Source: a virus. Taken from it: DNA of 28,154 bases. The translations under genes were made by a program, and so were the position numbers. The stretch's first letter is position 1; each line of letters begins with the position of its first letter. The stretch covers positions 1 to 28,154 of IMG/VR virus record IMGVR_UViG_3300032265_002658; one strand, given 5' to 3'. The notes beneath the pieces were generated by a model. It ran no database searches. It had not been told where the DNA came from and was given only the letters and a program-made list of their open reading frames with translations. Positions 1 through 17,876 of this stretch are shown piece after piece.

Positions 1-136
1 GATAGGCTTCTGCTGCGTCTATGGCGGCAGCAACACTTGGGTGCTTGTTGAGGTGCTGCACGCGCTTCGCGCACCACGTGGCAAACCTAAGGCATTCTAT
101 ATTAGACCAGGTTTGCAGTGTTTCTTTTAAGGTCAT
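1..136 (-). CDS. Small phage protein, C-terminus cut by window edge
   Basis: The minus strand is open from an ATG at 136 to the left edge, giving at least 45 residues. An SD-like AGGTGGG lies about 5 bases before the ATG. The start falls 13 bases after the stop of the upstream 38-residue gene, so the two are probably co-transcribed. Visible features are a motif reading roughly LRFATWCAKRVQHL followed by an Ala-rich AAAIDAAEAY stretch. This resembles the helical 'L-x-C-A-x-R-V-x-H-L ... A-I-x-A-A' pattern of small phage proteins often annotated as putative immunity-like or hypothetical. That link is recalled pattern similarity, not a search result. No function is assigned. Confidence 0.6.
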   Translation of the reverse strand, partial: MTLKETLQTWSNIECLRFATWCAKRVQHLNKHPSVAAAIDAAEAY

Positions 137-149
137 GGCAACCCACCTA

Positions 150-266
150 TCAGATAACGTTCTCTTCAACCCACGCCACCAGCGATGGTCTAGGACCGCC
201 GCTAACAGCGTCAATAGGTAGGTCTTCAAGATCAAGATCAAGAACAACATCGGCTTGTTGGCTCAT
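150..266 (-). CDS. Acidic 38-residue hypothetical protein
   Basis: A short ORF starts at an ATG with a strong ribosome site: AGGAGG lies four bases upstream (positions 271-276 on the plus strand). The 38-residue product is acidic, with an alternating D-L-D-L-E-D stretch near residues 10-16 and no cysteine or membrane segment. A partial copy of the regional box (TAGGATCG, 301-308) lies 35 bases upstream. The product is not recognisable. The ribosome site and the tight link to the next leftward gene are the reasons for calling it. Confidence 0.55.
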   Translation of the reverse strand: MSQQADVVLDLDLEDLPIDAVSGGPRPSLVAWVEENVI

Positions 267-300
267 ATAACCTCCTGATATCGTTGTGTGCGTGCGACGA

Positions 301-309
301 TAGGATCGC
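301..309 (-). promoter_or_regulatory. Variant CCGATCCTA box
   Basis: The plus strand reads TAGGATCGC, matching 8 of 9 bases of the box found before many minus-strand genes here. It lies 35 bases upstream of the ATG at 266. It is probably a promoter or operator for the 38-residue gene. Confidence 0.35.
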
Positions 310-310
310 G

Positions 311-460
311 TCAATCCTCGACCTCGATCGGCTCGATGACGTCGATCTCGTTCAGCTCTCCACCATGGGTCAACGCTATTTTCTCGAGCTCGCTCAAGAT
401 ATCGTCTGCGACCTTGGGGTCAACGACTATAACACCCTCAAAACGAATCACGTGCTTCAT
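311..460 (-). CDS. Acidic 49-residue hypothetical protein
   Basis: An ATG at 460 has GGAGG six bases upstream (467-471). The 49-residue product starts MKHVIRFEGV and has a DP-K-x-A-D-D helix-like middle. Its tail is very acidic (E-I-D-V-I-E-P-I-E-V-E-D). It has no membrane segment. A perfect regional box (517-525) lies 57 bases upstream of the start. The product is unrecognised; such small acidic proteins are common in early or accessory regions of large phages, and a role is not inferable. Confidence 0.6.
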   Translation of the reverse strand: MKHVIRFEGVIVVDPKVADDILSELEKIALTHGGELNEIDVIEPIEVED

Positions 461-516
461 ACCAAACCTCCGCAGGGATCGTGGATTTCATCAGAATAGT
501 TGATCGTGGGTTTAAA

Positions 517-525
517 TAGGATCGG
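517..525 (-). promoter_or_regulatory. CCGATCCTA box
   Basis: Perfect copy (TAGGATCGG on the plus strand), 57 bases before the start at 460. It is followed on the minus strand by an AT-rich TTTAAA stretch. Confidence 0.5.
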
Positions 526-667
526 ATCCCCTTCACCTTGGGAGTACCAAGGTAGCTTCACCCAGTGAAACACCTCACCCTCGGCTTCACCTTGATGGCC
601 ACGACGCTCTCTTCTGGAGAGAGAGGACGGATCAGACCGGGCTCATGCCCAAGGTGTCTAGCTTAAC

Positions 668-697
668 TAGCTTAAAGCCAAGAGAAAGTTTAAGCTA
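668..697 (-). terminator. Stem-loop after the 83-residue gene
   Basis: TAGCTTAAA (668-676) pairs perfectly with TTTAAGCTA (689-697) around a 12-base loop. It lies seven bases beyond the stop codon at 704-706 on the minus strand. There is no clean T-run, so it may be a weak terminator or an RNA-end stabiliser. Confidence 0.35.
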
Positions 698-703
698 AAG
701 TAG

Positions 704-955
704 CTAAAATTTAGGCAACACGTCAGCAGGGGAAGGAGCGGGGTCGGAGAGAACCTCTTCCCCGGGGCAAGGTTCTAGTGTCAAAAACTTTCCAACCCCC
801 GACAGCGCTTGATGTGTCACCCACGTTCTCAACATCTCTTCGTGGTTGGAAGAAATCTTAAGTCTTCGCGCTAACTCAAAAAACCAGAACACGCCCACGT
901 ACGCGCGACGATAAGGGCTGCTATCTCTTTCTGTATCAACGTGATACGTTTTCAT
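704..955 (-). CDS. 83-residue hypothetical protein
   Basis: An ATG at 955 is preceded by GAGGAG about eight bases upstream. The 83-residue product has a basic aromatic N-terminal half (YRRAYVGVFWFFELARRLK) that could form an amphipathic helix. A Pro/Glu-rich tail follows, with P-C-P-G-E-E and DPAPSPADVLP segments. There is a single cysteine and no signal peptide. It is not recognised. No copy of the regional box lies directly upstream, so it may have another promoter or be read from an upstream transcript. Confidence 0.6.
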   Translation of the reverse strand: MKTYHVDTERDSSPYRRAYVGVFWFFELARRLKISSNHEEMLRTWVTHQALSGVGKFLTLEPCPGEEVLSDPAPSPADVLPKF

Positions 956-1199
956 AGGTCACGCTCCTCGCGCATCGCGTGGGCAGCATCCGGCACCTCG
1001 GAGGTAGGAGGACCGCCCTAGTTAACTACGGCTCGTGGCAGGGCGAGAAGGATTCTCCCTACCCGTTAGAGGAACAGGTGGGATCTGGTGAGGTGCAGTA
1101 GAAGAGGGTAGGGGTGTAGCAACGCCCATCCTCGACACCAGCGTAATCCTTGCATCCAACCTAGCTGGAGCTGATCCCGCCCCGTACTGCGAGCTTTCC
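956..1199. other. 244-base gap without a convincing gene
   Basis: The gap holds the ribosome site for the 83-residue gene and two small inverted repeats (ACCTC-GAGGT near 996-1008 and GAGAA-gga-TTCTC near 1045-1060). A 72-codon frame on the minus strand starts only at a GTG inside the next gene and has no ribosome site. Nothing else could be supported. Confidence 0.5.
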
Positions 1200-1409
1200 T
1201 CAACCGTTATCTGGGGGTAGGTCGAATATCCAGCCCTCACCCTGGCACCAGGTGCCGCAGTGGACCGAGTCCACGTAGTAGAGCATCATGCTGATCTCGC
1301 CTTCGAGACCAGACTCCCTGTAGGGAGACTTGCTCAAGCTGTTGCCTTCAAACATGGCGATAAGCTTGCTCTCGAAGTCCTTCTTGTCGATCTTGTCCTT
1401 GAAGATCAT
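1200..1409 (-). CDS. 69-residue hypothetical protein
   Basis: Two in-frame ATGs lie at 1415 and 1409. The GGAGG at 1416-1420 abuts the first but stands six bases before the second, so 1409 is the better start (product beginning MIFKDKIDKK). The 69-residue protein has a charged N-terminus, a hydrophobic MMLYYVDSV strand near the middle and a Cys pair (HCGTWCQGEGW) that could bind metal or form a disulfide. It ends in DLPPDNG. Its family is unknown. A TATATATA run about 15 to 20 bases before the ribosome site could be a -10 region. Confidence 0.6.
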   Translation of the reverse strand: MIFKDKIDKKDFESKLIAMFEGNSLSKSPYRESGLEGEISMMLYYVDSVHCGTWCQGEGWIFDLPPDNG

Positions 1410-1449
1410 GAGCATCCTCCTGTCTGCGTATATATAGGTATGATCCGCG

Positions 1450-1468
1450 TCTCGGTTCGGTAACGAGA
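1450..1468 (-). other. Hairpin in the leader of the 69-residue gene
   Basis: TCTCG (1450-1454) pairs with CGAGA (1464-1468) around a loop containing GGTTCGG, a partial form of the regional box. It could be a terminator for the 67-residue gene to its right or part of a regulatory site. Confidence 0.25.
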
Positions 1469-1531
1469 GAGTTCCTCTACCCCCTAGGGAGATAGTTTAG
1501 GAGGAGCGTCGGGTAAACCTCGCGGGTTGGT

Positions 1532-1735
1532 TCAGGCTTCTTCTACCGTGACGCGGTAGGACTTACCTTGGTGATCCTTGGCGAGTATGGTCTTCTTGGT
1601 GGAGACCAGGTAGCCGTCGGGCGAGAGGTCAGCCTGAACCCTCGACACTTCGAGCCAGGAGATCAGGCCGGAGTCGTCTTCGGCCAGCGAGTCGCGGAGT
1701 AAGCTTGCTATGTAGTCGCAGTACGCTAGTTTCAT
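1532..1735 (-). CDS. 67-residue hypothetical protein
   Basis: An ATG at 1735 has AGAGG five bases upstream. The 67-residue product (MKLAYCDYIASLLRD...) is mixed alpha/beta in appearance. A C-terminal stretch of alternating charged and hydrophobic residues suggests beta strands (GYLVSTKKTILAKD, KSYRVTVEEA). It has one cysteine and no membrane segment. A perfect CCGAACCTA box (1780-1788) lies 45 bases upstream, inside a repeated promoter unit. Its function is not recognised. Confidence 0.6.
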   Translation of the reverse strand: MKLAYCDYIASLLRDSLAEDDSGLISWLEVSRVQADLSPDGYLVSTKKTILAKDHQGKSYRVTVEEA

Positions 1736-1772
1736 GATAACCTCTTAAGTATACTTATTATTTTCTTTACAC

Positions 1773-1821
1773 GTTTATGTAGGTTCGGAAACCTACTGCG
1801 TGGGCGTAACAGTGTCGGTTG
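1773..1821 (-). repeat. Duplicated promoter-region unit, copy A
   Basis: These 49 bases match 2682-2730 at 42 positions by eye. The unit carries the CCGAACCTA box plus a conserved GTGGGCGTA core flanked by ACTG and CAGT half-sites. It sits between the gene-end hairpin of the 49-residue membrane protein and the leader of the 67-residue gene. Confidence 0.7.
1780..1788 (-). promoter_or_regulatory. CCGAACCTA box
   Basis: Perfect copy (TAGGTTCGG on plus), 45 bases before the ATG at 1735, followed on the minus strand by an AT-rich leader. Confidence 0.5.
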
Positions 1822-1837
1822 CCTTCGGAGGCAACCG
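1816..1837 (-). terminator. Gene-end hairpin
   Basis: CGGTTGCCT (1816-1824) and AGGCAACCG (1829-1837) form a perfect 9-base-pair stem with a 4-base loop. It lies ten bases past the stop of the 49-residue gene on the minus strand. There is no T-run, so termination strength is uncertain. Confidence 0.4.
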
Positions 1838-1846
1838 GGTTGCACG

Positions 1847-1996
1847 CTATCTGCGACGACGGCGGTTTGCGATGGACTTGCGGGGGATATCGCTTAGAGC
1901 AAATATGCCCGTAAGAACCGTAAGCATCGCAAACGCACCGGAAAGAAGTGCGAACACAGCAGTAAACCGAATGATCTCGATAGCTAGGTCAAACAT
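1847..1996 (-). CDS. 49-residue single-pass membrane protein
   Basis: An ATG at 1996 follows a GAGG site within a few bases (TGAGGAAGT then ATG). The 49-residue product has one long hydrophobic segment of about 24 residues (roughly 11-34, FTAVFALLSGAFAMLTVLTG and on). A short polar link follows, and the C-terminus ends in five arginines. By the positive-inside rule the C-terminus would be cytoplasmic. It lies ten bases downstream of the 72-residue gene and ends at a strong hairpin. Small phage membrane proteins include holins, spanins and superinfection-exclusion factors. It is far from the endolysin, so none of these can be chosen. Confidence 0.6.
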   Translation of the reverse strand: MFDLAIEIIRFTAVFALLSGAFAMLTVLTGIFALSDIPRKSIANRRRRR

Positions 1997-2005
1997 ACTT
2001 CCTCA

Positions 2006-2224
2006 TCACTTCTTTAAGTTGGTGTAGTTAGATTTACTTAGCTGGATCTTAGCCACGCGCTCGCGGTCGCTCATCACCCGACCAGGCGTTGACTTGCTGA
2101 TGCTGACCTTCTTCGTGGGACGGGCATCGGGTAAACTATAGAACTTCTTCAGGCTGCGGTAGGTTTCAAGACCAAACGTGCCGTCGTAGCGCTTACTCTG
2201 ACTCACTGCGTCTCTGCGTTTCAT
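2006..2224 (-). CDS. Basic 72-residue hypothetical protein
   Basis: An ATG at 2224 has AAGGAG about seven bases upstream. The 72-residue product is strongly basic, rich in Lys, Arg and Ser (KKVSISKSTPGRVMSDRERVAKIQLSKSNY), and ends in KK. It has no cysteine or membrane segment, which suggests a nucleic-acid-binding or otherwise polyanion-binding protein. That is inference from composition only. Its 24-base start region is identical to that of the gene starting at 3281. A box variant (2259-2267) lies 35 bases upstream. Confidence 0.6.
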   Translation of the reverse strand: MKRRDAVSQSKRYDGTFGLETYRSLKKFYSLPDARPTKKVSISKSTPGRVMSDRERVAKIQLSKSNYTNLKK

Positions 2225-2244
2225 GGTAAACTCCTTAGTTGTTG
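2221..2244 (-). repeat. Shared translation-start leader, copy A
   Basis: These 24 bases, covering the ATG, the AAGGAG site and a CAACAACT leader, are identical to 3278-3301. The two copies drive unrelated proteins, so the leader itself was duplicated or conserved. Confidence 0.7.
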
Positions 2245-2258
2245 GTTATACTAGGGTT

Positions 2259-2267
2259 TAGTATCGG
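2259..2267 (-). promoter_or_regulatory. CCGATACTA box variant
   Basis: The plus strand reads TAGTATCGG, one base off the regional consensus, 35 bases before the ATG at 2224. Confidence 0.4.
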
Positions 2268-2298
2268 AAGAGAGCCATCCATAGCCCAAGAGTCAACC

Positions 2299-2568
2299 TC
2301 AGATCACGACGCCAAATTTTGCTAAGATCTGACGATACTCAGGTTGACGCAACACCGTCATCCTCGCCAAGATCCGCGAGCTGTACCGAGAGAAGAAGTC
2401 TTCGAGAGATCGCGGTGCACCGTCTTCATGACGCCATATCACGAAGTACGGTGATGTATCACCAAGATTCTCATACACCTCCCAGAGCATCCCATCGCGC
2501 TCAGTGCATCCGAGTGATTGGTACTCATAGCTGTTGCTGCTGCTGTCGGTTAGTTTGAGTGTTTTCAT
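2299..2568 (-). CDS. 89-residue hypothetical protein
   Basis: The open frame extends further upstream, but the ATG at 2568 has GAGGAGG about six bases upstream, so the product begins MKTLKLTDSS. The 89-residue protein has an N-terminal beta-like half rich in Ser and aromatics (YEYQSLG, MLWEVYENLG, SPYFVIWRHEDG). A helical, Arg-rich C-terminal half follows (SLEDFFSRYSSRILARMTVLRQ). It resembles a small alpha/beta fold, but no family is recognised. A perfect box (2596-2604) lies only 28 bases before the start, implying a very short leader if it is a promoter. Confidence 0.6.
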   Translation of the reverse strand: MKTLKLTDSSSNSYEYQSLGCTERDGMLWEVYENLGDTSPYFVIWRHEDGAPRSLEDFFSRYSSRILARMTVLRQPEYRQILAKFGVVI

Positions 2569-2595
2569 GTTGAACCTCCTCATTATGCTTATGTT

Positions 2596-2604
2596 TAGGA
2601 TCGG
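2596..2604 (-). promoter_or_regulatory. CCGATCCTA box
   Basis: Perfect copy, 28 bases before the ATG at 2568. The ribosome site follows the box by about 17 bases, which limits where transcription could start. Confidence 0.5.
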
Positions 2605-2627
2605 GATGCCACCGTTCAAACCATCAT

Positions 2628-2681
2628 AACCATTTATTTATATATGGTTATTTATTTATATATGGTTATTTATTTATATAT
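2628..2681. repeat. Three 18-base AT-rich tandem repeats
   Basis: Three consecutive 18-base units end in the same 14 bases (ATTTATTTATATAT). Units two (2646-2663) and three (2664-2681) are identical; unit one starts AACC instead of GGTT. They lie between two promoter boxes (2596-2604 and 2689-2697). They could be an UP-like or bent-DNA element, protein-binding iterons, or slippage-generated sequence. Confidence 0.75.
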
Positions 2682-2730
2682 GTTTATATAGGTTCGGTAT
2701 ACCACTGTGTGGGCGTAGCAGTGTCGGTTG
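2682..2730 (-). repeat. Duplicated promoter-region unit, copy B
   Basis: Partner of 1773-1821 (42 of 49 bases identical). It contains CACTG, an 11-base core with GTGGGCGTA, and CAGTG as an inverted repeat, next to a CCGAACCTA box (2689-2697). Confidence 0.7.
2689..2697 (-). promoter_or_regulatory. CCGAACCTA box
   Basis: Perfect copy followed on the minus strand by TATATAAACATATATAAATAA and the AT-rich tandem repeats. It lies 121 bases before the nearest start (2568), the longest leader in the set. Confidence 0.45.
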
Positions 2731-2739
2731 GGTTCGGTG

Positions 2740-2762
2740 GGGACCACCTCGGTGGTGGTCCC
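2740..2762 (-). terminator. Gene-end hairpin
   Basis: GGGACCACC (2740-2748) pairs perfectly with GGTGGTCCC (2754-2762) around a 5-base loop, 13 bases past the stop at 2775. It is GC-rich with no T-run. It occupies the same place relative to the promoter unit as the hairpin at 1816-1837, although its sequence is different. Confidence 0.45.
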
Positions 2763-2774
2763 GAGCTTCAGCTA

Positions 2775-3281
2775 TCAGCCAACCAGGTGGCGGATAGCTT
2801 CGGGCAGGATGTCAGCGTTGATCTCGACCGTCTTGGTGGCTACGGCACCGATCTCAGCGAGGCGGTCGGCGATGGCGGCGTCCACCTGCGCGACGCCGTC
2901 AGCGTTGCCAAGATCCGCGAGCTGCTTGCGGAGCAGACGCATCTGCTTGATCTGCTCGTCGCCCGTACCAGCTCTCGATCCGGGATTCTTGATCTCGTAC
3001 TTCAAGCCACCGTTCAGCTCCTTGCTCTTGTTGAACCAGTTCGTCACCATGCCCATGACGTACTTGGAGACAAGCGATTCGATGGAGGTGGCGTACTTGG
3101 CCTTCGCGGCGTCGCTCAGCTCGACCTCGCCGTTCATCATGCCTTCGGCAACCGCCAGCGCGACGGCGTGCTTGTCGGCCTTGGTGGCGTAGGTCTTGAC
3201 GTCGGTCCCGACCCGGAACCGCTCGCCGAACCACGTCTTGGTTGCTTCAACGACGGCAGCGTGCTGTGATAACTTGCTCAT
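2775..3281 (-). CDS. 168-residue hypothetical protein, probably abundant
   Basis: An ATG at 3281 has AAGGAG about seven bases upstream; the open frame runs further but lacks a better site. The 168-residue product (MSKLSQHAAVVEATKTWFG...) is Ala-rich and appears almost wholly helical. It has several charged helices and a K-Q-M-R-L-L-R-K-Q-L segment that may form a coiled coil (about 105-145). There is no cysteine, signal or membrane segment. It is GC-richer than the tail genes, and the clean leader, promoter box and terminator hairpin suggest a strongly expressed single-gene unit. The family is unrecognised. Confidence 0.75.
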   Translation of the reverse strand: MSKLSQHAAVVEATKTWFGERFRVGTDVKTYATKADKHAVALAVAEGMMNGEVELSDAAKAKYATSIESLVSKYVMGMVTNWFNKSKELNGGLKYEIKNPGSRAGTGDEQIKQMRLLRKQLADLGNADGVAQVDAAIADRLAEIGAVATKTVEINADILPEAIRHLVG

Positions 3282-3301
3282 GGTAAACTCCTTAGTTGTT
3301 G
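3278..3301 (-). repeat. Shared translation-start leader, copy B
   Basis: Identical over 24 bases to 2221-2244, covering the ATG and the AAGGAG site. Confidence 0.7.
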
Positions 3302-3316
3302 ATTGATGCTTAAGAT

Positions 3317-3325
3317 TAGGATCGG
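3317..3325 (-). promoter_or_regulatory. CCGATCCTA box
   Basis: Perfect copy immediately after the stop codon of the 51-residue gene (3326-3328) and 36 bases before the ATG at 3281. Upstream gene and promoter are packed without a gap. Confidence 0.5.
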
Positions 3326-3481
3326 TCATGCTGCTAAGTAAACCACGTTGCTCACCTCATCCTCGCTCACCCATGTCGGTGAGCCGTAGGCTATCAGATA
3401 CTCGTTTCGGTTCTTCACCGTGCTCCAGATCACGTCTATCACCACCACCGTCTCGTCTCGGTAAACCAAGGTTCCGATCAT
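3326..3481 (-). CDS. 51-residue hypothetical protein
   Basis: An ATG at 3481 has GGAGGTGA about five bases upstream, one of the strongest ribosome sites here. The 51-residue product (MIGTLVYRDETVVVIDVIWS...) begins with two beta-like strands. It contains SPTWVSEDEV, then ends in a hydrophobic VVYLAA tail. The pattern suggests a small SH3-like or beta-barrel fold, which is inference only. A perfect box lies 44 bases upstream. It is not recognised. Confidence 0.6.
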   Translation of the reverse strand: MIGTLVYRDETVVVIDVIWSTVKNRNEYLIAYGSPTWVSEDEVSNVVYLAA

Positions 3482-3524
3482 AGCTCACCTCCCGTTGTTT
3501 CCACTAGAAGTGGTTGGTGATCAA

Positions 3525-3533
3525 TAGGATCGG
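3525..3533 (-). promoter_or_regulatory. CCGATCCTA box
   Basis: Perfect copy, 44 bases before the ATG at 3481. Confidence 0.5.
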
Positions 3534-3553
3534 AGGAAGATACCCACTACCCT

Positions 3554-3655
3554 CTAAATCATAGGGAACCCTAGTTTCGGAGGCCTCCGACGCTGCGCAA
3601 ACTGTCTATAATGGTGGAATATCTCCAGCACGCTGCTATTATCAACTATCAACAT
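3554..3655 (-). CDS. 33-residue peptide, possible decayed paralogue
   Basis: An ATG at 3655 opens a 33-codon frame (MLIVDNSSVLEIF..., basic middle QRRRPPK). The first six residues (MLIVDN) match the MLSVDN start of the 56-residue gene at 3877. Both are preceded by the same 53-base cassette, so the start regions are duplicates. After that the proteins differ. The ribosome site is weak (GGTGGG well upstream). It may be a real small gene or a decayed copy. Confidence 0.4.
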   Translation of the reverse strand: MLIVDNSSVLEIFHHYRQFAQRRRPPKLGFPMI

Positions 3656-3670
3656 GCCGGGCCCATACCC

Positions 3671-3723
3671 ACCCGCTGGCCTTGAGCCTATTAGGTTCGG
3701 GGTCCCCTATACTTGATCTTCGT
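3671..3723 (-). repeat. Intergenic cassette, copy A
   Basis: These 53 bases match 3883-3935 at all but two positions. On the minus strand the unit carries the last codons and stop of one gene (E-D-Q-V-stop), the palindrome GGGGACCCC, the CCGAACCTA box, and the GGCCAGCGGGTGG leader of the next gene. Confidence 0.8.
3692..3700 (-). promoter_or_regulatory. CCGAACCTA box
   Basis: Perfect copy inside cassette A, 37 bases before the ATG at 3655. Confidence 0.45.
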
Positions 3724-3877
3724 GTTTTATGGGGAGTACGCGGTACACGTCCGCCACTGAGCGATAGCAGTTCATCGGCGTTCCCACCCTGAGTCTCCTG
3801 ATCACGTACATCATGCTGAGAACTACGAGCATGCCGTTAATCCACTTCCTGTTCATGGTGTTATCAACAGATAGCAT
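3707..3877 (-). CDS. 56-residue hypothetical protein
   Basis: The frame is open far upstream, but the ATG at 3877 matches the start position of the paired cassette and follows a weak GGTGG. An alternative ATG lies at 3856. The 56-residue product begins MLSVDNTMNRK and has a hydrophobic stretch (MLVVLSMMYVI, about 16-26) followed by RRLR, so it could be membrane-associated. It ends KHEDQV, the same EDQV end as the next gene to its right, because the stop region lies inside the duplicated cassette. It is not recognised. Confidence 0.45.
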   Translation of the reverse strand: MLSVDNTMNRKWINGMLVVLSMMYVIRRLRVGTPMNCYRSVADVYRVLPIKHEDQV

Positions 3878-3882
3878 TATCC

Positions 3883-3935
3883 ACCCGCTGGCCTTGGGTC
3901 TATTAGGTTCGGGGTCCCCTATACTTGATCTTCGT
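3883..3935 (-). repeat. Intergenic cassette, copy B
   Basis: Partner of 3671-3723, 212 bases away. It contains the stop of the 52-residue gene, the GGGGACCCC palindrome, the box and the start leader of the 56-residue gene. Confidence 0.8.
3904..3912 (-). promoter_or_regulatory. CCGAACCTA box
   Basis: Perfect copy inside cassette B, 27 bases before the ATG at 3877. Confidence 0.45.
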
Positions 3936-4077
3936 CGGTAGGTGCCATCACCGACATCATCAATTTCGATATCATGGAGTGGCAATCCACCGCTGCCCCG
4001 ATCCTGAACCTGTAGAGCATCTCAGCGAGGCGGATGATCAGGTTCGCGCGACGCCCAAAGCCTAAGTCCTCGCTCAC
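3919..4077 (-). CDS. 52-residue hypothetical protein coupled to the HNH gene
   Basis: A GTG at 4077 overlaps the TGA stop of the HNH gene (GTGA), an arrangement typical of translational coupling; there is no separate strong ribosome site. The 52-residue product begins VSEDLGFGRRANL. It has an amphipathic helix-like segment (LIIRLAEMLYRF), one Cys-His (VDCHSM), a Met-rich stretch and the shared EDQV end. An ATG at residue 20 is an alternative start but lacks a site. The product is unrecognised. Confidence 0.4.
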   Translation of the reverse strand: MSEDLGFGRRANLIIRLAEMLYRFRIGAAVDCHSMISKLMMSVMAPTDEDQV

Positions 4078-4670
4078 GACCGCACCAGCAGGTATCGATC
4101 TATATCCTCGCACAGCATGGCCAGTATCTCCGGTGTTGGGTTCGATTTGTAAAGAAGTGCCATCTCGCGCAGGTAACCGTGCACGCCTAGGGCACGCCGC
4201 TCATCGCCGGGCTCGTAACCGCTGAACTGCGCAGAGCTTTCGACGATCTCGTCGTTTATGGCTGCGCTCATCTTGCGGTTGGCTTCGGCGAGGCGCAAGA
4301 GCTGCGAAGCGTCCAGTTGGACGACATCGTCTTGCTTCTTGCGGTTGCACTGCGTGCACAGCGGTACGGCGTTGTTTACGAGCCTACCCGTAGACCTGAG
4401 ACGCATGGTAAAGCAGCCGCCATGAGACTTGGGTATCCAGAAGTGGTCCAGCTCGATGCCGTCGCGATCTTCGCCGCAAAGCCCGCATCGACAATCATAG
4501 ATGCGCATAAGCGTAGCCCACCACTTTATCTTGTAGAGTCTTTCGTCAGAATTACTTCGGGAATAGCTGCGGCGTTCTATGACGTAGAAATCTGGTCCAG
4601 TGGGTGGAAGACTCTGTGTCAGTAGACGAGAGTTGTGCTCGCGGCGAGCTTGTAAACTGAGCTTAGACAT
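4074..4670 (-). CDS. HNH endonuclease
   Basis: The 198-residue protein carries an HNH / beta-beta-alpha-metal nuclease core. Two zinc-type CxxC knuckles (C62-x2-C65 and C105-x2-C108) flank the catalytic E-L-D-H (D75-H76) and the N99-N100 region before V-P-L-C. This layout is that of metal-dependent nicking or double-strand DNA endonucleases found as free-standing homing enzymes, packaging nucleases or host-degrading enzymes in phages. The N-terminal 60 residues are basic; the C-terminal 85 are helical without a recognised domain. No Shine-Dalgarno is visible before the ATG at 4670, only AT-rich DNA, so translation may be weak or leaderless. Being next to the lysozyme gene fits a mobile homing gene, but that is inference. 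Confidence 0.85.
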   Translation of the reverse strand: MSKLSLQARREHNSRLLTQSLPPTGPDFYVIERRSYSRSNSDERLYKIKWWATLMRIYDCRCGLCGEDRDGIELDHFWIPKSHGGCFTMRLRSTGRLVNNAVPLCTQCNRKKQDDVVQLDASQLLRLAEANRKMSAAINDEIVESSAQFSGYEPGDERRALGVHGYLREMALLYKSNPTPEILAMLCEDIDRYLLVRS

Positions 4671-4717
4671 GTAAGTGTTTATTTTATTTAGTAAAAATGA
4701 TGTTTAAAAACAAAAAA

Positions 4718-5263
4718 TCACCCCTGACTCAGGAACAGTCTGCGCTCGGCCTCGCGTCTGCGCACCAAACCCGGAAGAACTCTACCGCCTGACCTTGTCC
4801 ATCTTAAGAACTCATCTGCAGCATCGACTATGTCGCCGTTATTAATTTTTAGTAGCAAAGACGACGTTTTGAGGTTGTTGGGGCCGCAGTTGTACGCAAA
4901 GCTAACTAAAGCCGCAAACTGATTGTCGCTTATGGGATACTTAACTAGTTTTGAAACGACATCGCAAAATATCTGCAACTGCTCTATCTGGTGCTGGTCT
5001 GCCTGGTCTTGCGTCCAGGTCGTGTTTGGACCTATCGGCTTTGGTCTACCGGAGTCGTCTAGGTTGAACTGATCTAGACCAGTAGATCCCCAACCTACGG
5101 TCCACGGATTACCGGGTAAGTTCTCCCACCCGTTCTTGCGGGCATTTGGAGTTTTTGCTAGTTCTAGTGCCAGCGGAGATCCTGGATCTGGATATGCGGT
5201 AAGTTTACAGCCTTCGAATGATCTTATTAAGATTAATCCGGTATCGTTGATTTTTCTTTGCAC
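4718..5263 (-). CDS. Endolysin, GH24 (T4-type) lysozyme
   Basis: The 181-residue protein is a muramidase that cleaves the beta-1,4 bond of peptidoglycan for host lysis. Seen in sequence: R-S-F-E-G with catalytic Glu17, A-Y-P-D-P with Asp26, and W-T-V-G-W-G with Thr55, matching the Glu-Asp-Thr triad of T4 lysozyme. A helical C-terminal lobe with Q-F-A-A-L-V-S-F-A-Y-N-C-G and R-R-R-E-A-E-R-R-L-F closes the fold. The D-to-T distance is 29 residues, against 6 in T4 lysozyme, so there is an inserted loop (about 28-53). No signal peptide, SAR segment or cell-wall-binding domain is present, so release would need a holin, none of which is certain here. GTG start at 5263 with AGAGAG upstream. Confidence 0.92.
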   Translation of the reverse strand: MQRKINDTGLILIRSFEGCKLTAYPDPGSPLALELAKTPNARKNGWENLPGNPWTVGWGSTGLDQFNLDDSGRPKPIGPNTTWTQDQADQHQIEQLQIFCDVVSKLVKYPISDNQFAALVSFAYNCGPNNLKTSSLLLKINNGDIVDAADEFLRWTRSGGRVLPGLVRRREAERRLFLSQG

Positions 5264-5373
5264 TGGTCATCTCTCTTACGCAGGTGTTTAAGCATTCTTG
5301 GCTCGAAAGGCGAAGAGCAAGAAGCGTATAAAGCATCATTATAGCCTTCGAGCTATATACAAGTGAGTTGTTG

Positions 5374-5640
5374 TTATTTATCTTTCTCACTTTTATCCGG
5401 TTGCGATATGATTTCTTCAATAGCGATTTCCAACAGCTTCGCGCGGGCAGCTTCTTTATACTTTTCTTTTATATTTTCGAAGGATGAGCCTGCTATGGCC
5501 TCAAGGCAACTAAGCCAACCGATTCCATTTGGTCGTTTTTTCAGCTTGGATAGCGGACAATGAAAGCACGCGTCTACGGGCAGGGTGTCGCATCTACCTG
5601 TGTCGGCTATTTGCTGTAATATTTGTATTTCTTTAGTCAC
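5374..5640 (-). CDS. 88-residue cysteine-containing protein
   Basis: A GTG at 5640 has GGAAGG five bases upstream. The 88-residue product has cysteines at 17, 25, 28 and 45 (GRCDTL, ACFHCPL, WLSCL), a spacing that could bind zinc. A Lys/Glu-rich helical C-terminal half follows (KEKYKEAARAKLLEIAIEEI). It ends in a charged tail. No family name is recalled, although small phage proteins with a C-x2-C-P-L knuckle are common. The gene is divergent from the late operon and shares an overlapping promoter region with it. Confidence 0.7.
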   Translation of the reverse strand: MTKEIQILQQIADTGRCDTLPVDACFHCPLSKLKKRPNGIGWLSCLEAIAGSSFENIKEKYKEAARAKLLEIAIEEIISQPDKSEKDK

Positions 5641-5650
5641 TGGTACCTTC

Positions 5651-5667
5651 CAGTATAATTATAACTG
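5651..5667. promoter_or_regulatory. Divergent promoter with overlapping -10 boxes
   Basis: The near-palindrome CAGTATAATTATAACTG carries TATAAT on the plus strand (5654-5659) and on the minus strand (5658-5663). It is placed to serve the start at 5684 to the right and the GTG at 5640 to the left. The plus-strand form CAGTATAATTA recurs at 13987-13997. Confidence 0.55.
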
Positions 5668-5683
5668 AACCCAGGAGTGAAGT

Positions 5684-6502
5684 ATGACGGAAACCATGAC
5701 AAAACCCAGCGGAACATTCCCAACCAGCGAGACGTCTACCCCGTCTTTCTTCCCCCCAAACTTACCGGATCCATCTGGATATAAGCAGAACTTTGATCAG
5801 CTGATAAACAGAAGGGGTATAAAGTTTATGCATTATAAGAGCTTACCATGCCCCAACATAAAACTATTAGACGATAACTCGCACGATCCTTTATGCGAAC
5901 AATGCGATGGTTCTGGAATTATCTATTATGAACCCAAGGAGATAGTGGGAATTCTCACGTCTAACTCAGTAGAGAAGCAGTTTGAATATCAGGGAGCGTG
6001 GGAGATAGGAAGCGCCGTGGTCACCATGCCGTCGGAATACGCGGATGGTGAGCAGGCAGATTTTACGCTCTACGACAAGCTAGAAGTCTTAGACTACACG
6101 GTAAGACTATGGGAATTAAAAGAATACGAACCGCGCCCAGGCGGAATCCAGCAACTACGATATCCCATAGAGAAAGTTGGGTATCTCATCACGGCAACCG
6201 ACAGTAAGATAACAGAATTTAAACAAGATGTTGATTTTACTATAAACAATGGGCTAATAGTATGGATACCAGGACACGAGCCGAGTTACGATAACATCAA
6301 CGAAATGGGTCAAACGTACTCAGTAGCTTACTGGGCACATCCAGTATACGTAGTGCTCCAACCGATGAGAGAACTCAGAGTAACTCAACAAATGATGCCT
6401 GATGGTACAAAGATATCTGTTAGACTTCCGCAGCAACTAGTTATAAAGAGAGACTTTTTGGTCAACAAGCCAGAAAAAATAGTAGCGGGTATCGGAAGTT
6501 AA
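5684..6502 (+). CDS. Virion structural / neck-region protein with Zn-ribbon-like knuckle
   Basis: The 272-residue protein starts at an ATG with AGGAG upstream. After a Pro/Ser/Thr-rich leader (1-30) it has C56-P, then a D-P-L-C71-E-Q-C74-D-G-S-G motif like one half of a zinc ribbon. A long beta-rich body follows with no recognised enzyme motif. It is the first gene of the rightward structural block, five genes before the sheath, the position of head-completion or neck proteins in contractile-tailed phages. The Cys-rich 'CP...C..C.GSG' pattern occurs in structural proteins of other large myophages, as I recall it. The exact role is not known. Confidence 0.7.
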   Translation: MTETMTKPSGTFPTSETSTPSFFPPNLPDPSGYKQNFDQLINRRGIKFMHYKSLPCPNIKLLDDNSHDPLCEQCDGSGIIYYEPKEIVGILTSNSVEKQFEYQGAWEIGSAVVTMPSEYADGEQADFTLYDKLEVLDYTVRLWELKEYEPRPGGIQQLRYPIEKVGYLITATDSKITEFKQDVDFTINNGLIVWIPGHEPSYDNINEMGQTYSVAYWAHPVYVVLQPMRELRVTQQMMPDGTKISVRLPQQLVIKRDFLVNKPEKIVAGIGS

Positions 6503-6522: not shown

Positions 6523-6543
6523 GATCTGAGAGGTATTTTGCGC

Positions 6544-8055
6544 ATGCCCGCCTTCGCTTCTAAAAAACAATACAGACTCATGATGGCCATTCTTCACGGC
6601 AAGCCAGGAACTACGGCTCGCGGTGACAAAGGCCCGCCAAAATCTGTTGCTGAAAAATACACGGGTTCAGGCAAAAACGTACCGGATAGTAAAGACAAGG
6701 CTCATCACGGCGGCAAGTGGACTGCAGAACATCATAAGCGTCATGCTGAAAAACATCGTAGTAAAGAAAAAAAGCTAGAAAAAGGTAGAGGTGGCTCTGC
6801 CGTGGTGGTTGTCAACGACAAGGGGCAACTTCTTATGGGTCGTCAAGTGAAAGACGACTATAGATGGTCGTTCCCCGGTGGTCACATTGACGATGGAGAG
6901 TCGCACAAGGATGCCGCGGTAAGAGAACTAGAAGAAGAAACAGGTGTGAGTATCGATAAAGGCTCATTAATCAAGCTACACGAAGACGGTAAAGACAAGG
7001 TGTATTTGGTTCGTCTTGATCACACCCCCGCATCGCACTCAACCGAGGAGCTTGCTGACGTTGGTTTTTACGACATAGACGATCTGGACTTTAATAAGCT
7101 CAGAGATTGCTGCACAGAAACGATGGCAATCTATCTTAAAACTAGATTAGCTAAAGGCAATAAGCCCCTTAACGAGTTGATTAAATTAGAAGAAGTAGAA
7201 ACCTTAACTAAGAACATAATCAGAACCGGTCAAGTCGCGGATGCGGTTTATGAATTTCGCCACGGCGATGCCATGAGATTGGTTGGCAACGGTGCCTTTA
7301 GGGCCTTAAAAAGAGGCGTTGAAGGCATGGGGGATGACGAGATAAGAGATGTAAATTTTGGCAACTATACTCTTCATGTTCGTAAGCACGCTAACGATAT
7401 CTACTCCGGCAGGATCGACGATGGATTAAAAACGATCCATCAGTTTGTCAACCGCTCACTACCCGCACTAACAGGCGAGCTGATGAGCGTGTTTGAGTGG
7501 TATGATTCCGATCAAAATCCTGATATGCAGTTTCATGAAGATCACGAACTCAGTGACGAAACCATAACAGACGGTATGCACAAGCTCATAAGCAACTATC
7601 GTTCTTACAATATTGCAGATATATATGACGAGATGGAAACCATCCGAGAGGAGATTAGGCAGGGCAACGCCGTAGACCTACAGCAAGCAGAGCAGAAGAT
7701 AATGGGCTTGTTCGATAGGTTGGAAGAACAACTAGATCTATTCCGAGATAAGCATAATGGTTTGACCTCTAGGTTAGGAGACGAGATAGACGAGATAGAG
7801 CAGCGACTTATATCGATGCAAAATTCTATCGACAAGTTGAGCAGCAAGCCATCCAAAATAGAGGCATTTTCTTCTAATCCAGCTAATCCCAGCATAGTTC
7901 ATTCTCAATACTACGAATATTTATCAAGACCCAAGGTCGTCATTAGTCCAACTGGACACGTGGTCGTAGATTTCAACGCGGATTGGACTAGCGGCGACAA
8001 AGAGAACTTTTTGGGCGATCTCAGGGTTAAGGTAATCAAAAAGAGCAAGAAATGA
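6544..8055 (+). CDS. Structural-region protein with N-terminal Nudix hydrolase domain
   Basis: The 503-residue protein has three parts. The N-terminus (1-40, FASKKQYRLMMAILHGKPG...KSVAEKY) resembles the short basic motif of DUF3008-type phage proteins. A basic His/Lys-rich linker precedes a Nudix domain (about 84-205) with a complete Nudix box, G113-x5-E119-x7-R127-E-L-x-E-E-x-G134-V, which binds metal and hydrolyses nucleoside-diphosphate-linked substrates in the family. The C-terminal 290 residues are helical, with a probable coiled coil (about 365-435). I chose the ATG at 6544, ten bases after GAGAGG. A TTG six bases earlier has closer spacing and would add two residues. Its place among neck genes suggests a virion or assembly role; the substrate is unknown. 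Confidence 0.8.
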   Translation: MPAFASKKQYRLMMAILHGKPGTTARGDKGPPKSVAEKYTGSGKNVPDSKDKAHHGGKWTAEHHKRHAEKHRSKEKKLEKGRGGSAVVVVNDKGQLLMGRQVKDDYRWSFPGGHIDDGESHKDAAVRELEEETGVSIDKGSLIKLHEDGKDKVYLVRLDHTPASHSTEELADVGFYDIDDLDFNKLRDCCTETMAIYLKTRLAKGNKPLNELIKLEEVETLTKNIIRTGQVADAVYEFRHGDAMRLVGNGAFRALKRGVEGMGDDEIRDVNFGNYTLHVRKHANDIYSGRIDDGLKTIHQFVNRSLPALTGELMSVFEWYDSDQNPDMQFHEDHELSDETITDGMHKLISNYRSYNIADIYDEMETIREEIRQGNAVDLQQAEQKIMGLFDRLEEQLDLFRDKHNGLTSRLGDEIDEIEQRLISMQNSIDKLSSKPSKIEAFSSNPANPSIVHSQYYEYLSRPKVVISPTGHVVVDFNADWTSGDKENFLGDLRVKVIKKSKK

Positions 8056-8762
8056 TATCGCACAAAATATCAATTTTACGCTCTCGTCTTTCATCCATGG
8101 GTATTCGCGGAACGCAATTAGATAAAATAATAGATGCTGCATCTGAAGATATAAGCAATGCTGTAAAAACTATAGTAGAAGAAGCAGTATATCAAGCAGA
8201 AAGCTTTGGCTCGTCTATGGGCGCAGAGGAATTCCTCTCGCAGATAAAATTAGATGCCAGCTCGGGATACATCGAGATATCAACCGACTCTGGTAGGTTG
8301 AATTTTAGTACACCACCCGTGCCCATGCTTCCTTGGCTCTTAAAAAATGCTAAAACGGCAGAGGATGGTAGCAGATATAAGGTCATTCCGGTTGGCGGTG
8401 GCGGTCTAAGCTCAAAGCCCAAACCCGTAGCTCGCGATATTACGGCAGGACTTAAAGCGCTGTCTAGCGAGGAGTCATCCGCCACCAATATGGCAGAAAA
8501 GATGGCTGCCGCTTTTGGCATGGCAGCGACTACAGGAACATCTCAGAGACAGGAACCAAAATCTATCGCCAAACCAGAGTTTAGAGTTGCATCCAGTAAG
8601 CAAGATGCCACGAGGCAATGGGTTGCACCGTCTAAAGAATTAGACATGAGTGGTATAGTTATGTCTATAAACGCATCTGTGCGATCTAGGATCGATCAGG
8701 CGTGCGATGAAGTTATAAAACGTTACGAAAAGGAGGCGATAAATGGCCTGGGTGATGCCTGA
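8052..8762 (+). CDS. Probable neck / head-tail joining protein
   Basis: The 236-residue protein starts at an ATG that overlaps the previous stop (ATGA), so it is translationally coupled. The N-terminal 70 residues are helical. The middle is Gly/Pro/Ala-rich and low in complexity (VGGGGLSSKPKPVA, residues about 110-170). The C-terminal part has FRVASSKQDATRQWVAPSKELDMSGI, a pattern like the 'R-x-V-S-x-x-x-D-x-x-x-W-V-x-P' motif seen near the tail genes of other large phages. A terminal helix follows. Position and motif suggest a connector or tail-completion component. This is inference; no fold is certain. Confidence 0.65.
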   Translation: MISHKISILRSRLSSMGIRGTQLDKIIDAASEDISNAVKTIVEEAVYQAESFGSSMGAEEFLSQIKLDASSGYIEISTDSGRLNFSTPPVPMLPWLLKNAKTAEDGSRYKVIPVGGGGLSSKPKPVARDITAGLKALSSEESSATNMAEKMAAAFGMAATTGTSQRQEPKSIAKPEFRVASSKQDATRQWVAPSKELDMSGIVMSINASVRSRIDQACDEVIKRYEKEAINGLGDA

Positions 8763-9372
8763 GATCGCAGTTCAGCGATTGATCCAGTATGGTATAGCAC
8801 AACTACGGCAAGATAAGCCTGCTTTCGACGAGATATTCGCATATTCTGTCAAGCATCCGCTGGTAGCAGAAGCTTATGGACAAGAATACGTCGACAAGGT
8901 GTGGACTTGGTTTACCACTGAGCGGATTCGAGTAGTCCAATCCTGGATTCTTAGTCCTCAAACAGTTCCGTGTTTCAGTATACACCTTTCCAACGAGAAC
9001 GAAGACGAGTCCAAGGCAGCTATAGGTGACTATTACGGCCATGGCGAGGACTCTGAGATAGGCATCAACTCGATGAACGTCCTGGTCGATATAGGCATAC
9101 ACGGCAGTAAAGCAGCAGACCAGGTCTTATGGATGTATTACATCATATCTTATGTACTTTTTAAGTACAAACCTATAGCGCAGGATCTAGGTATAGCTAT
9201 ACAGACTTACAGCGCATCAGACTGGCAGAAAGATGCGACCAAGATGCCAGAGAACATATGGACCCGTTGGTTAAGGATGAGATGTACAGTATTTAACACT
9301 TGGAACGCAGAAGCGTACCAAGTAGCCACAGAAATAGACACAAGCATGGAATTTGAACCAGCTTTAACGTAA
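8743..9372 (+). CDS. Probable tail-terminator or neck protein
   Basis: The 209-residue protein overlaps the previous gene by 20 bases. Its ATG follows AAAAGGAGG, a near-perfect ribosome site inside that gene. It is Trp- and Tyr-rich, with an N-terminal helical part (RLIQYGIAQLRQDKPAFDEIF) and a beta-rich centre (VPCFSIHLSNENEDE, MNVLVDIGIHG). A hydrophobic helix follows (VLWMYYIISYVLF). It lies two genes before the sheath, as tail-terminator or sheath-completion proteins do in many contractile phages. No specific family motif is recognised, so the role rests on gene order. Confidence 0.6.
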   Translation: MAWVMPEIAVQRLIQYGIAQLRQDKPAFDEIFAYSVKHPLVAEAYGQEYVDKVWTWFTTERIRVVQSWILSPQTVPCFSIHLSNENEDESKAAIGDYYGHGEDSEIGINSMNVLVDIGIHGSKAADQVLWMYYIISYVLFKYKPIAQDLGIAIQTYSASDWQKDATKMPENIWTRWLRMRCTVFNTWNAEAYQVATEIDTSMEFEPALT

Positions 9373-9376
9373 AACA

Positions 9377-9390
9377 AGAGAGAGAGAGAG
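9377..9390 (+). promoter_or_regulatory. (AG)7 tract serving as ribosome site
   Basis: Seven AG units end two bases before the ATG at 9393. GAGAG-type sequence can pair with the 16S tail, but no GGAG core is present. As a dinucleotide tract it is prone to slippage. Confidence 0.5.
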
Positions 9391-9392
9391 AA

Positions 9393-9662
9393 ATGTCTAA
9401 GAAAAATCAAGAAAATCAAATAGATGCACAATCTATCAAAGAGTATGAAAATGCACAACGGATCAAGAATACGCCCATGCCGCCACTAGAACTCGTCGAC
9501 ATGGACGAGTGGTGGGCAAAACGCGCACCTGCTTTAAGTCAACCATCTCATATTAAAGAAATTCTTAAAGCTGATGCGGCCGGTAGAAAGATATCGGGAA
9601 AGCAGACGGTTGAGCGCTGGGACTGGGCTGCACGCCAGTTTGGCTTAACTTTTGATATCTAA
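9393..9662 (+). CDS. 89-residue hypothetical protein before the sheath
   Basis: The 89-residue protein starts at an ATG after the AG tract. It has a charged N-terminus (MSKKNQENQIDAQSIKEYENAQR), a Pro-rich turn (TPMPPLELVDMDEWWAKRAPA) and a C-terminal helical patch ending TVERWDWAARQFGLTFDI. There is no cysteine or membrane segment. It lies 21 bases after the neck-region gene and is probably co-transcribed with it. The product is unrecognised; it may be a small assembly or structural factor, judged only from its place. Confidence 0.6.
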   Translation: MSKKNQENQIDAQSIKEYENAQRIKNTPMPPLELVDMDEWWAKRAPALSQPSHIKEILKADAAGRKISGKQTVERWDWAARQFGLTFDI

Positions 9663-9666
9663 ATAC

Positions 9667-9685
9667 TATTATTTAAGCAATAATA
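9667..9685 (+). terminator. Weak AT-rich hairpin before the sheath promoters
   Basis: TATTATT (9667-9673) pairs with AATAATA (9679-9685) around a 5-base loop, followed by a T-rich stretch. All pairs are A-T, so it is at best a weak terminator. Confidence 0.3.
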
Positions 9686-9712
9686 AGTTGTTTAAATTTC
9701 AAACTATATTGT

Positions 9713-9723
9713 CAAGTTATAAT
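9713..9723 (+). promoter_or_regulatory. Sheath promoter candidate 1
   Basis: CAAGTTATAAT, identical to 9789-9799, in the 173-base gap before the sheath gene. The TATAAT core is at 9718-9723. Confidence 0.5.
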
Positions 9724-9788
9724 ATATAGTGTCTATACAGCATGTTGTCGTCCAATGTTCCTAATATCCTGATCCTCAGCTGCCCATA

Positions 9789-9799
9789 CAAGTTATAAT
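9789..9799 (+). promoter_or_regulatory. Sheath promoter candidate 2
   Basis: Second copy of CAAGTTATAAT, 37 bases before the sheath ATG (TATAAT at 9794-9799). Tandem copies fit the high expression a sheath needs. Confidence 0.55.
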
Positions 9800-9835
9800 G
9801 AAAAGGATCTTTTAGAAAAGAATGGAGATCGAATA

Positions 9836-12010
9836 ATGGCTATAAATGTATCATTTAACGGGTCAACTATCTATAAGCCTTCAGCTTATTCTCAGACCAC
9901 AATTGACCTAAGCGGCAACGTTCCGCTTGGACCAGCGGGTTTGATCGCCATTTTCGGTGAATCAGATGCTGGTGCACCTGGTGCCTCCGAGACGGATATC
10001 TCTAGCAATTACTTTACTGCAGAAAACTTGATCAGCGCTCGCAACAAGTATCGCTCTGGTCCAGTCGTAGACGCGTTAAATTTTCTCTTCTCACCTGCCT
10101 CAGATGGATCGATTCCAAGTGGTGCTCAAGCTGTCTGGGTATACAAGACCAACGCCTCAGTAAGAGCATCTTTAATACTTGCCGGATCATACGGTACGGT
10201 TCGCGCGCAAGAATGGGGTGCCGGCGGTAATCAAGTTTCCGCTAGGGTCTTGGCCGTAGCAGAGACACCGGCTACTGTTACTGGTACTACTCCAGCTTCT
10301 CTTGGCGTATCGCTCAATGGTGCTTCTTTCACCGTACGTGTCAACGGCGGCATCGCAACTGTGGTTACGCTTAGCAGTACTAGCACGGATCACGATACCA
10401 TAGCTCATTTAGTCAATGAGTTAAACACCCACCTACCAGCTAGCATAATTGCTTCTGTTTCTAGCGGCGCGGTGCAACTAACCATGGCGGCATCTGCTGG
10501 TCAATATGCATTGGGCTGGGGACGTTCGTTCGAGCTAGTTGATTCAACAGTAGGAAATCTGGCAAAACTTGGTCTAGTTGCAGGACTGCACTCTGCTTCC
10601 GTAGAACCAAATGCTACTATCACGATCAACCAGAAGCGCGATCTTCTGGTAGAAAGTGACACCGTCGGTGGTAACGTAGTTTTGACCATCGGACGCGACT
10701 CGACCGGTGGTGCGACCTCAGCTTCAGTAACGGTTACTCCGACTGCTGTCGTACTAACTGACTCCATTGGCTCGATCACCTTTGATCAGGCAGCTTTTGT
10801 GACCATCAGCCAGCTGGCACAATCAATCTCGCTGCAACCAGGTTGGTCTGCTAGTGTTACCAACTCGATCTATAACCAACTCGGTCTCGGCGTGCTAGAT
10901 CAAGTTTCTGCCGTTGGTGCCTTGGGTGCCACAGGTAGTCAACCTGCTCGCTTGAAAAAAGATGCTTATGAAGTTCAGGCTGTGTTTGCGCAGTCAAACG
11001 CTGCAGATCTAATAAGTCCTGCGGTAGTTGGTCTACCGGCTTCTCTATCAGAGACGTTGCTAACAGGTGGCGCTAAGGGCGGCACCATGACCACCGACAT
11101 CGTGAATGCACTTGCTAAGTTTGAAAAATTACAAGTAAACTCGATTATCCCATTGTTCTCTCGCAATGCTTCTGCCGATCTTGCTGACGGTCTTACTGAC
11201 ATATCTTCGACCTATACTGTTGACGGTATCCATCAGGCTGTAAAGACACACATCAGTTTGATGAAGACGACCAAGAAGAAAGGCGAGCGTCAAGGTTACC
11301 TGTCGGTGAAAGATTCGTATGCCAATAGCAAAACTAAGGCTGCTAACATGGCCGACGCGCGTATCCAGATGGTTATCCAGGATGTGCGCCAGTCTACTGC
11401 GGGTGGCGTGATCCAGTGGTTTCAGCCATGGGCTCTTGCGTGCTTGCTGGCTGGTGCTCGCGGTGGTGCACCTATCGGGCTACCGCTAACCTTCAAGTTT
11501 CTCAACTGTTCTGGCATTCGTCAGACAGTTCAGCCAATGACCACTGCCGAAGCTGATATCGTCATCGGCTTTGATCCGGACGTTCAGTATGACGATGCGA
11601 TCCAGTCCGGTATCACGTTTATGGAAGCTCCTCGCACCGGCGGCTATCGCGTGGTGGTAGATAATACCACGTATGGTATCGATGACAACTGGGTGTATAA
11701 TCGCGCGAACGTACTGTATGCCGCAGATATCGTAGCCTATAATTTTCGCAACGTCATGGAACTACGTTACGTCGGCGTGAAGAACAACCTGCAAGCTAGC
11801 GAAGTTAAAGGTACAGCAGAGTCAGTGCTCGCGACCTTCTTAGCGCAAGGTATCACGGTAAGCACGGCCGATGCACCGCAAGGCTTTAAGTCGCTCACGG
11901 TCGCGATCAACGGTAACGTGATCAACATCTCAGTGACGATTAAGCTGGTAGAAGGTATTGATTTCGTTCTAGAAACTATCTCCCTGCAGCGCGCTAGTCA
12001 GACAGCTTAA
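9836..12010 (+). CDS. Tail sheath protein
   Basis: The 724-residue protein polymerises around the tail tube and contracts to drive injection. Seen in sequence: the N-terminal G-P-A-G-L-I-A-I-F-G-E-S-D-A-G-A-P-G segment and the A-x-N-L-I-S-A-R-N-K-Y-R-S-G-P-V-V-D-A-L-N-F-L-F-S-P pattern typical of large-phage sheaths, with G-A-Q-A-V-W-V-Y-K-T-N. The C-terminal domain follows (NVMELRYVGVKNNLQ..., ending VEGIDFVLETISLQR), the conserved part that packs on the tube. Roughly residues 150-375 look like inserted beta-rich domains with LNGASFTVRVNGG-like strands, making it longer than T4 gp18 (659 aa). It has its own promoters and terminator, so it is a separately tuned unit. Confidence 0.92.
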   Translation: MAINVSFNGSTIYKPSAYSQTTIDLSGNVPLGPAGLIAIFGESDAGAPGASETDISSNYFTAENLISARNKYRSGPVVDALNFLFSPASDGSIPSGAQAVWVYKTNASVRASLILAGSYGTVRAQEWGAGGNQVSARVLAVAETPATVTGTTPASLGVSLNGASFTVRVNGGIATVVTLSSTSTDHDTIAHLVNELNTHLPASIIASVSSGAVQLTMAASAGQYALGWGRSFELVDSTVGNLAKLGLVAGLHSASVEPNATITINQKRDLLVESDTVGGNVVLTIGRDSTGGATSASVTVTPTAVVLTDSIGSITFDQAAFVTISQLAQSISLQPGWSASVTNSIYNQLGLGVLDQVSAVGALGATGSQPARLKKDAYEVQAVFAQSNAADLISPAVVGLPASLSETLLTGGAKGGTMTTDIVNALAKFEKLQVNSIIPLFSRNASADLADGLTDISSTYTVDGIHQAVKTHISLMKTTKKKGERQGYLSVKDSYANSKTKAANMADARIQMVIQDVRQSTAGGVIQWFQPWALACLLAGARGGAPIGLPLTFKFLNCSGIRQTVQPMTTAEADIVIGFDPDVQYDDAIQSGITFMEAPRTGGYRVVVDNTTYGIDDNWVYNRANVLYAADIVAYNFRNVMELRYVGVKNNLQASEVKGTAESVLATFLAQGITVSTADAPQGFKSLTVAINGNVINISVTIKLVEGIDFVLETISLQRASQTA

Positions 12011-17864: not shown

Positions 17865-17876
17865 CGAGATTAAGGT

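Follow-up and report, generated by a model that had tools for sequence, protein, structure and literature searches.

A probable single-element promoter class on the small-gene strand of an uncultured myovirus group

The box in the virus fragment

The nine-base word CCGAWCCTA lies ahead of small minus-strand genes in this virus DNA, which raises the question of what the box does and what reads it. The window, that is, the whole 28,154-base stretch analysed, is a fragment of a virus genome. Its plus strand carries virion genes from 5684 onward, including those for the tail sheath and baseplate, and its minus strand at 1-5640 carries small genes together with an HNH nuclease-like gene and an endolysin gene. 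A UvsX-like recombinase is also encoded on the virion strand, as is a 505-aa protein with a NUDIX hydrolase domain (6538-8055), which adjoins the virion genes; a NUDIX protein is also found in the structural cluster of Myxococcus phage Mx1. The terms early and late, when applied to the two strand classes, are presumptive labels.

A near-identity search of named phages gave no DNA match to the window, and the nearest named relative is Mx1, with about 31% identity in the tail sheath. A related sheath is encoded at at least 283 loci in IMG/VR, and the window belongs to a large myovirus group that is wholly uncultured, widespread in metagenomes and without a close cultured member. A single scan of isolate and metagenome-assembled (MAG) genomes for a host turned up no relative. 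The comparison genomes (G002-G023) are IMG/VR records with a related sheath and include contigs of 85-176 kb, in which genes were called by our own simple script. The copies of the box and the associated features of the window are as follows.

301-309, minus strand: near copy of the box, GCGATCCTA, 34 nt before the ATG at 266; the homologous copy in L031 is an exact box
517-525, minus strand: box, CCGATCCTA, 56 nt before the ATG at 460; homologous box at 4395 in L031
1452-1460, minus strand: box variant, CCGAACCGA, 42 nt ahead of the ATG of the gene ending at 1200, which has a Shine-Dalgarno sequence
1780-1788, minus strand: box, CCGAACCTA, 44 nt before the ATG at 1735; preceded by the inverted-repeat module
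2259-2267, minus strand: near copy of the box, CCGATACTA, 34 nt before the ATG at 2224; CTAGTATAAC downstream fits a pyrimidine-A initiator
2596-2604, minus strand: box, CCGATCCTA; the ATG at 2568, with its own Shine-Dalgarno sequence, follows after 27 nt
2689-2697, minus strand: box, CCGAACCTA, followed by tandem repeats; no start codon within 60 nt
2775-3281, minus strand: box-preceded gene, 168 aa; family present in box-bearing relatives and in G013
3317-3325, minus strand: box, CCGATCCTA, 35 nt before the ATG at 3281 of this conserved small-gene family
3525-3533, minus strand: box, CCGATCCTA, 43 nt before the ATG at 3481; the homologous G004 gene is also boxed
3572-3580, minus strand: box variant, CCGAAACTA, upstream of the 3525 box
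3692-3700, minus strand: box, CCGAACCTA, in one copy of the 58-nt duplication; not followed by a clear Shine-Dalgarno-led gene
3904-3912, minus strand: box, CCGAACCTA, in the second copy of the 58-nt duplication; likewise without a clear Shine-Dalgarno-led gene
5653-5659, plus strand: GTATAAT, virion-strand promoter class; the ATG of the first virion gene, at 5684, follows after 24 nt
13989-13995, plus strand: GTATAAT, virion-strand promoter class, 31 nt before the ATG at 14027

The exact box occurs eight times within 517-3912, always on the minus strand, and is absent from the plus strand, whereas 2000 dinucleotide shuffles of positions 1-5640 gave a mean of 0.05 copies and a maximum of 2. 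Its two forms, CCGAACCTA and CCGATCCTA, are the two most frequent 9-mers on the minus strand of that region. The earlier note had listed these eight perfect copies on one strand, two near copies (301 and 2259) and none in the plus-strand late genes, all of which we confirmed, and had overlooked the variants at 1452 and 3572. It had also placed every copy except that at 2689 some 27-57 bases before a start codon; seven copies (301, 517, 1780, 2259, 2596, 3317 and 3525) stand 27-56 nt ahead of a Shine-Dalgarno-led ATG, and those at 3692 and 3904 have ATGs close by but no convincing gene.

Two pairs of exact copies sit in duplicated segments, so the eight amount to six independent contexts: 3692 and 3904 lie in the 58-nt segment (3666-3723 and 3878-3935, 95% identity), and 1780 and 2689 lie in a 76-nt module (1761-1836 and 2670-2745, 78% identity). 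The 58-nt segment resembles one in L031 near 2739, and its two boxed copies could drive a small RNA. In the 76-nt module the box is closely preceded by an inverted repeat, CACTG-YTACGCCCAC-CAGTG, whose core CTRYTACGCCC is present in 22 of the loci retrieved, in several cases immediately ahead of boxes. The inverted repeat (CACTGYTACGCCC...CAGTG) was considered as part of a core promoter and rejected, as only a subset of boxes has it. Directly after the 2689 box, three 18-bp AT-rich tandem repeats occupy 2632-2687. Members of the 2775-3281 family are 153-171 aa long, often with two or three copies per genome; the family is absent from Mx1 and gave no match in the named-phage collection. When it was considered as a DNA-binding reader of the box, its G004 relative gave no family match.

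Motifs on the two strands of related genomes

Motif discovery by expectation-maximisation on intergenic upstream regions, with each strand class treated separately, recovered two strand-specific motifs de novo in the relatives: CYGAWnCTA on the small-gene strand and TGGTATAAT on the virion strand. Nearly all genomes searched gave tGGTATAATa, or a word close to it, as their top virion-strand motif. The box was the top motif ahead of small-gene-strand genes in the window combined with L031 (16/20, CCGAt.CTAta), in G004 (19/47, TT.CCGATCCTAta), in G002 (22/50, TCCGAAtCtAtTaa) and in G006 (21/37, tTCcGAA.ctAtta). Variants of the box were the top motif on the same strand in G012 (CtGA...TAt), G014 (tCtGAt.ctA), G015 (AccgataCgA or ACCGAt.CGA), G016 (tatCtGAaactA), G017 (C.GATc.Tata) and G019 (AaCcGATaCg), and the top motif in G023 was.cGAaTcGtt. 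Searches that were cross-seeded with the wrong starting motif reverted to the proper one in several genomes. G013 and G018 had no clear box, though both carry the sigma-like domain described below.

The exact box is found 11 times in G004, all on the small-gene strand, and 10 times within 8 kb of L031. At 12 bits, matrix sites on the small-gene and virion strands numbered 19 and 0 in the window, 28 and 0 in G004, 29 and 2 in G002, and 23 and 0 in G006, counts that come from matrices trained on the same strand that they scored. The fair test is the cross-trained one, in which a matrix built from G004 only and applied to window positions 1-5640 at 8 bits or more gave 15 sites on the minus strand, against 2.7 expected from shuffles, and 4 on the plus strand. 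Orthologous genes retain the box as its letters change, for example those at 91514-93310 in G004 (CCGAATCTA) and 52502-54289 in G002 (CCGAATCAA), and the distance from box to start codon is typically 20-45 nt, with a Shine-Dalgarno sequence in between. What had been described as a signal of one phage is present there and belongs to the whole group: it recurs in at least eight relatives, with diverged letters and the same role, down to about 49% sheath identity.

Start-site signature and competing explanations

A pyrimidine-A step stands 17 or 18 bases after the first C of the box in 55 of 107 non-redundant sites, compared with a mean of 15.4 at other positions (binomial p 2e-19); before removal of similar sites the proportion was 53% of 116 good sites. 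These two positions played no part in the choice of sites. The signature puts the predicted RNA start about 9-10 bp after the 9-mer. On the virion-strand motif, the pyrimidine-A count peaks 7 nt after the last T of TATAAT, and a sigma-70-type -10 element starts transcription 7 bases after that T, which supports the use of the initiator as a ruler for start sites, one that needs no RNA. Upstream of the box, 186 sites revealed neither a word at a fixed distance nor a -35 element, leaving one conserved word, as in single-element promoters read by phage sigma factors; downstream, the sequence leans to TAtaaaT. Since the initiator sits at a fixed downstream place, the box would span about -18 to -10 of a single-element promoter.

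We consider it highly probable (about 0.87), from the sequence comparisons, that the box forms the core of a bacterial-type promoter with a single element, which serves the small-gene strand throughout this myovirus group. The proposed group consensus is C(C/T)GA(A/T)nCTA-ta--T---Y(A+1), in which RNA would start at the A about 10 bases past the box and continue through the Shine-Dalgarno sequence to the start codon; both this start and the timing of the two classes are predictions. A second class without a -35, TGGTATAAT, would serve the virion strand, so that the finding amounts to a two-class promoter map for the group, obtained from sequence alone. The core promoter proposed in the earlier note is upheld by recurrence, restriction to one strand, intergenic placement and the start-site signature at a fixed distance. 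Copies 3692 and 3904, which lack a convincing gene, and 2689, which lacks a nearby start codon, count against a promoter. So do the lack of a clear box in G013 and G018, the virion-strand-type word ahead of the sigma-like gene and the mismatch with the FliA register, the last two taken up below.

The same note had stated that the box does not look like a sigma-70 pair, and this was borne out. TTGACA and TATAAT 16-18 bases apart are not enriched in the clade: box-strand regions had 0 pairs versus 2.2 in shuffles in G004, 1 versus 4.2 in G012 and chance numbers in the others, and window positions 1-5700 had 8 versus 5.1 (sd 2.4). Mx1, the control, had 18 versus 1.6.

Other functions for the box fit the same data less well. 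The clustering of two or three box-like words at window 2729-2803 and L031 2914-2988 would be in keeping with an operator, bound by a repressor or activator that controls the small genes. Such a function is improbable nevertheless, because an operator needs no single orientation, no fixed distance to an initiator and no downstream Shine-Dalgarno sequence, all of which the box has, and because the same regions yielded no other promoter motif; the earlier suggestion of a repressor site controlling the whole cluster is disfavored on these grounds. The short distance to the Shine-Dalgarno sequence could instead point to part of an RNA leader, acting as a processing or translation signal. The initiator signature lies downstream of the box, which would put the box outside the RNA, and no Rfam match was found at gathering thresholds, making this explanation very improbable. 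Just as remote is a promoter for a phage single-subunit RNA polymerase, to which a compact word near the start site and without a -35 would be suited: conservation ends after about 11 bases, short of +1 to +6, a stretch included in the roughly 20 bases conserved in a T7-type promoter, and the search for such a polymerase gave no matches, with its positive controls silent too. An archaeal BRE/TATA arrangement, with TATA about 26 bp before the start, was rejected because the boxes can lie as close as 20-27 nt to the start codon with the Shine-Dalgarno sequence between, which would then go untranscribed.

A different rival accepts the promoter and assigns it to the host holoenzyme, containing either an alternative sigma or sigma-70, with or without a phage activator; in the activator version, a phage factor would bind CYGAWnC beside a weak TA-rich -10, like T4 MotA. 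The host enzyme alone is available right after entry, the degenerate TAtaaaT stretch after the box could act as a -10, and the box letters vary by sub-group, as expected if hosts differ. Set against this are the absence of a -35 or any positional upstream word at the 186 sites, a motif so unlike TATAAT that it would be unusual for a primary sigma, and the genome scan for a host, which gave no relative. We regard a host holoenzyme as a serious possibility, somewhat short of an even chance.

Candidate readers and the closest known systems

For the single-element promoter, the reader is most likely the core RNA polymerase of the host, directed by a specificity factor other than sigma-70. The earlier note had offered a phage RNA polymerase or an altered host enzyme; the latter fits better, because a search of the large relatives, in which the controls were positive, yielded no large subunit of a multisubunit RNA polymerase. 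A search for sigma region 2 identified a small protein in G006; G004 and G005 matched weakly, and a G002 homolog was recovered by similarity. The best solved structure for the region-2 profile is E. coli FliA (E 2e-12), and the G006 protein, which consists of region 2 only, matches the phrog_351 sigma factor (E 1e-9). The region-2 protein stands alone in G002, G004, G006 and G023 and forms the C-terminal part of a protein of ~500-640 residues in G012-G018. Among the fusion loci are G012 8228-9880, G013 147656-149581 and G017 100195-102006, in each of which a long acidic protein from the virion-strand cluster ends in the FliA-like domain. A second small protein in the same genomes weakly resembles sigma region 4. 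Relatives accordingly encode a phage sigma that lacks region 4, whereas no sigma gene was found in the window fragment. Two other sigma factors were set aside as readers: no homolog of the Mx1 sigma factor was found in the relatives, and an RpoD-like protein (G019 17720-18406, 228 aa, incomplete in region 4) was found only in G019.

By sequence comparison, the sigma-like domain appears to be the only phage specificity factor common to the group, and the leading candidate reader is the phage's FliA-like, region-2-only sigma, whose gene is expected in the portion of this genome that the fragment lacks. Its role as reader of the box is a tentative proposal, to which we give somewhat less than even odds, the same as for a host holoenzyme. 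The domain could equally read the virion-strand word, by analogy with T4 gp55; the stand-alone gene itself follows a virion-strand-type word, which we counted against that assignment. At the position of FliA R91, a residue to which Koo et al. (2009) reportedly assign a role in FliA, sub-groups with K mostly have CCGA boxes and those with T or A have mixed CC and CT boxes; the match is loose and on the tree may reflect one single ancestral change. In a more elaborate and unlikely version, a FliA-derived region-2 domain carried in the virion would read the box and switch the small genes on at entry without host sigma-70. Virion-strand promoters would drive synthesis of the domain, which in several relatives is the C-terminal part of a head-cluster protein; the fusion among head genes, the virion-strand motifs at stand-alone copies and the residue-91/box match point in this direction. 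Should the phage domain prove to be the reader, it would represent a naturally occurring miniature sigma of non-TATAAT specificity, and the promoter word and the minimal sigma domain form a testable pair.

In Mx1, unlike the group studied here, small genes are under ordinary TTGAC-n-TAGTAT sigma-70 promoters. T4 late promoters (TATAAATA, gp55/gp33) are likewise a one-element class with a region-2 type phage sigma and a separate region-4-like small protein, but T4-like letters are found here on the virion strand and the box makes up a separate, second class. Sigma-28 (FliA) promoters have the form TAAAGTTT-n11-GCCGATAA, with the start 6 bases after GCCGATAA (PMC2859248). They share the CCGA core with the box, and the phage domain is FliA-like. 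The box promoters, however, have no TAAA -35 at the 186 sites and no GCCGATAA that stops about 6 bp short of the predicted start; CCG precedes the start by ~13 bases in FliA promoters and by ~18 in box promoters, about 5 bases nearer in the former. The sigma-28 register, favored at first because CCGAT resembles GCCGATAA, was dropped once the initiator signature set CCGA at 18 bases from the start instead of 13. The nearest described arrangement is that of the phiEco32 middle/late promoters, which are read by phi32_gp36 and have the element tAATGTAtA with a start 6-8 bp downstream (PMC8948821). Predicted transcription from the box looks like this arrangement in layout, with a single element, no -35, a start predicted shortly downstream and a phage sigma without region 4; the element is tAATGTAtA there and CYGAWnCTA here, and for phiEco32 both the reading sigma and the host are known.
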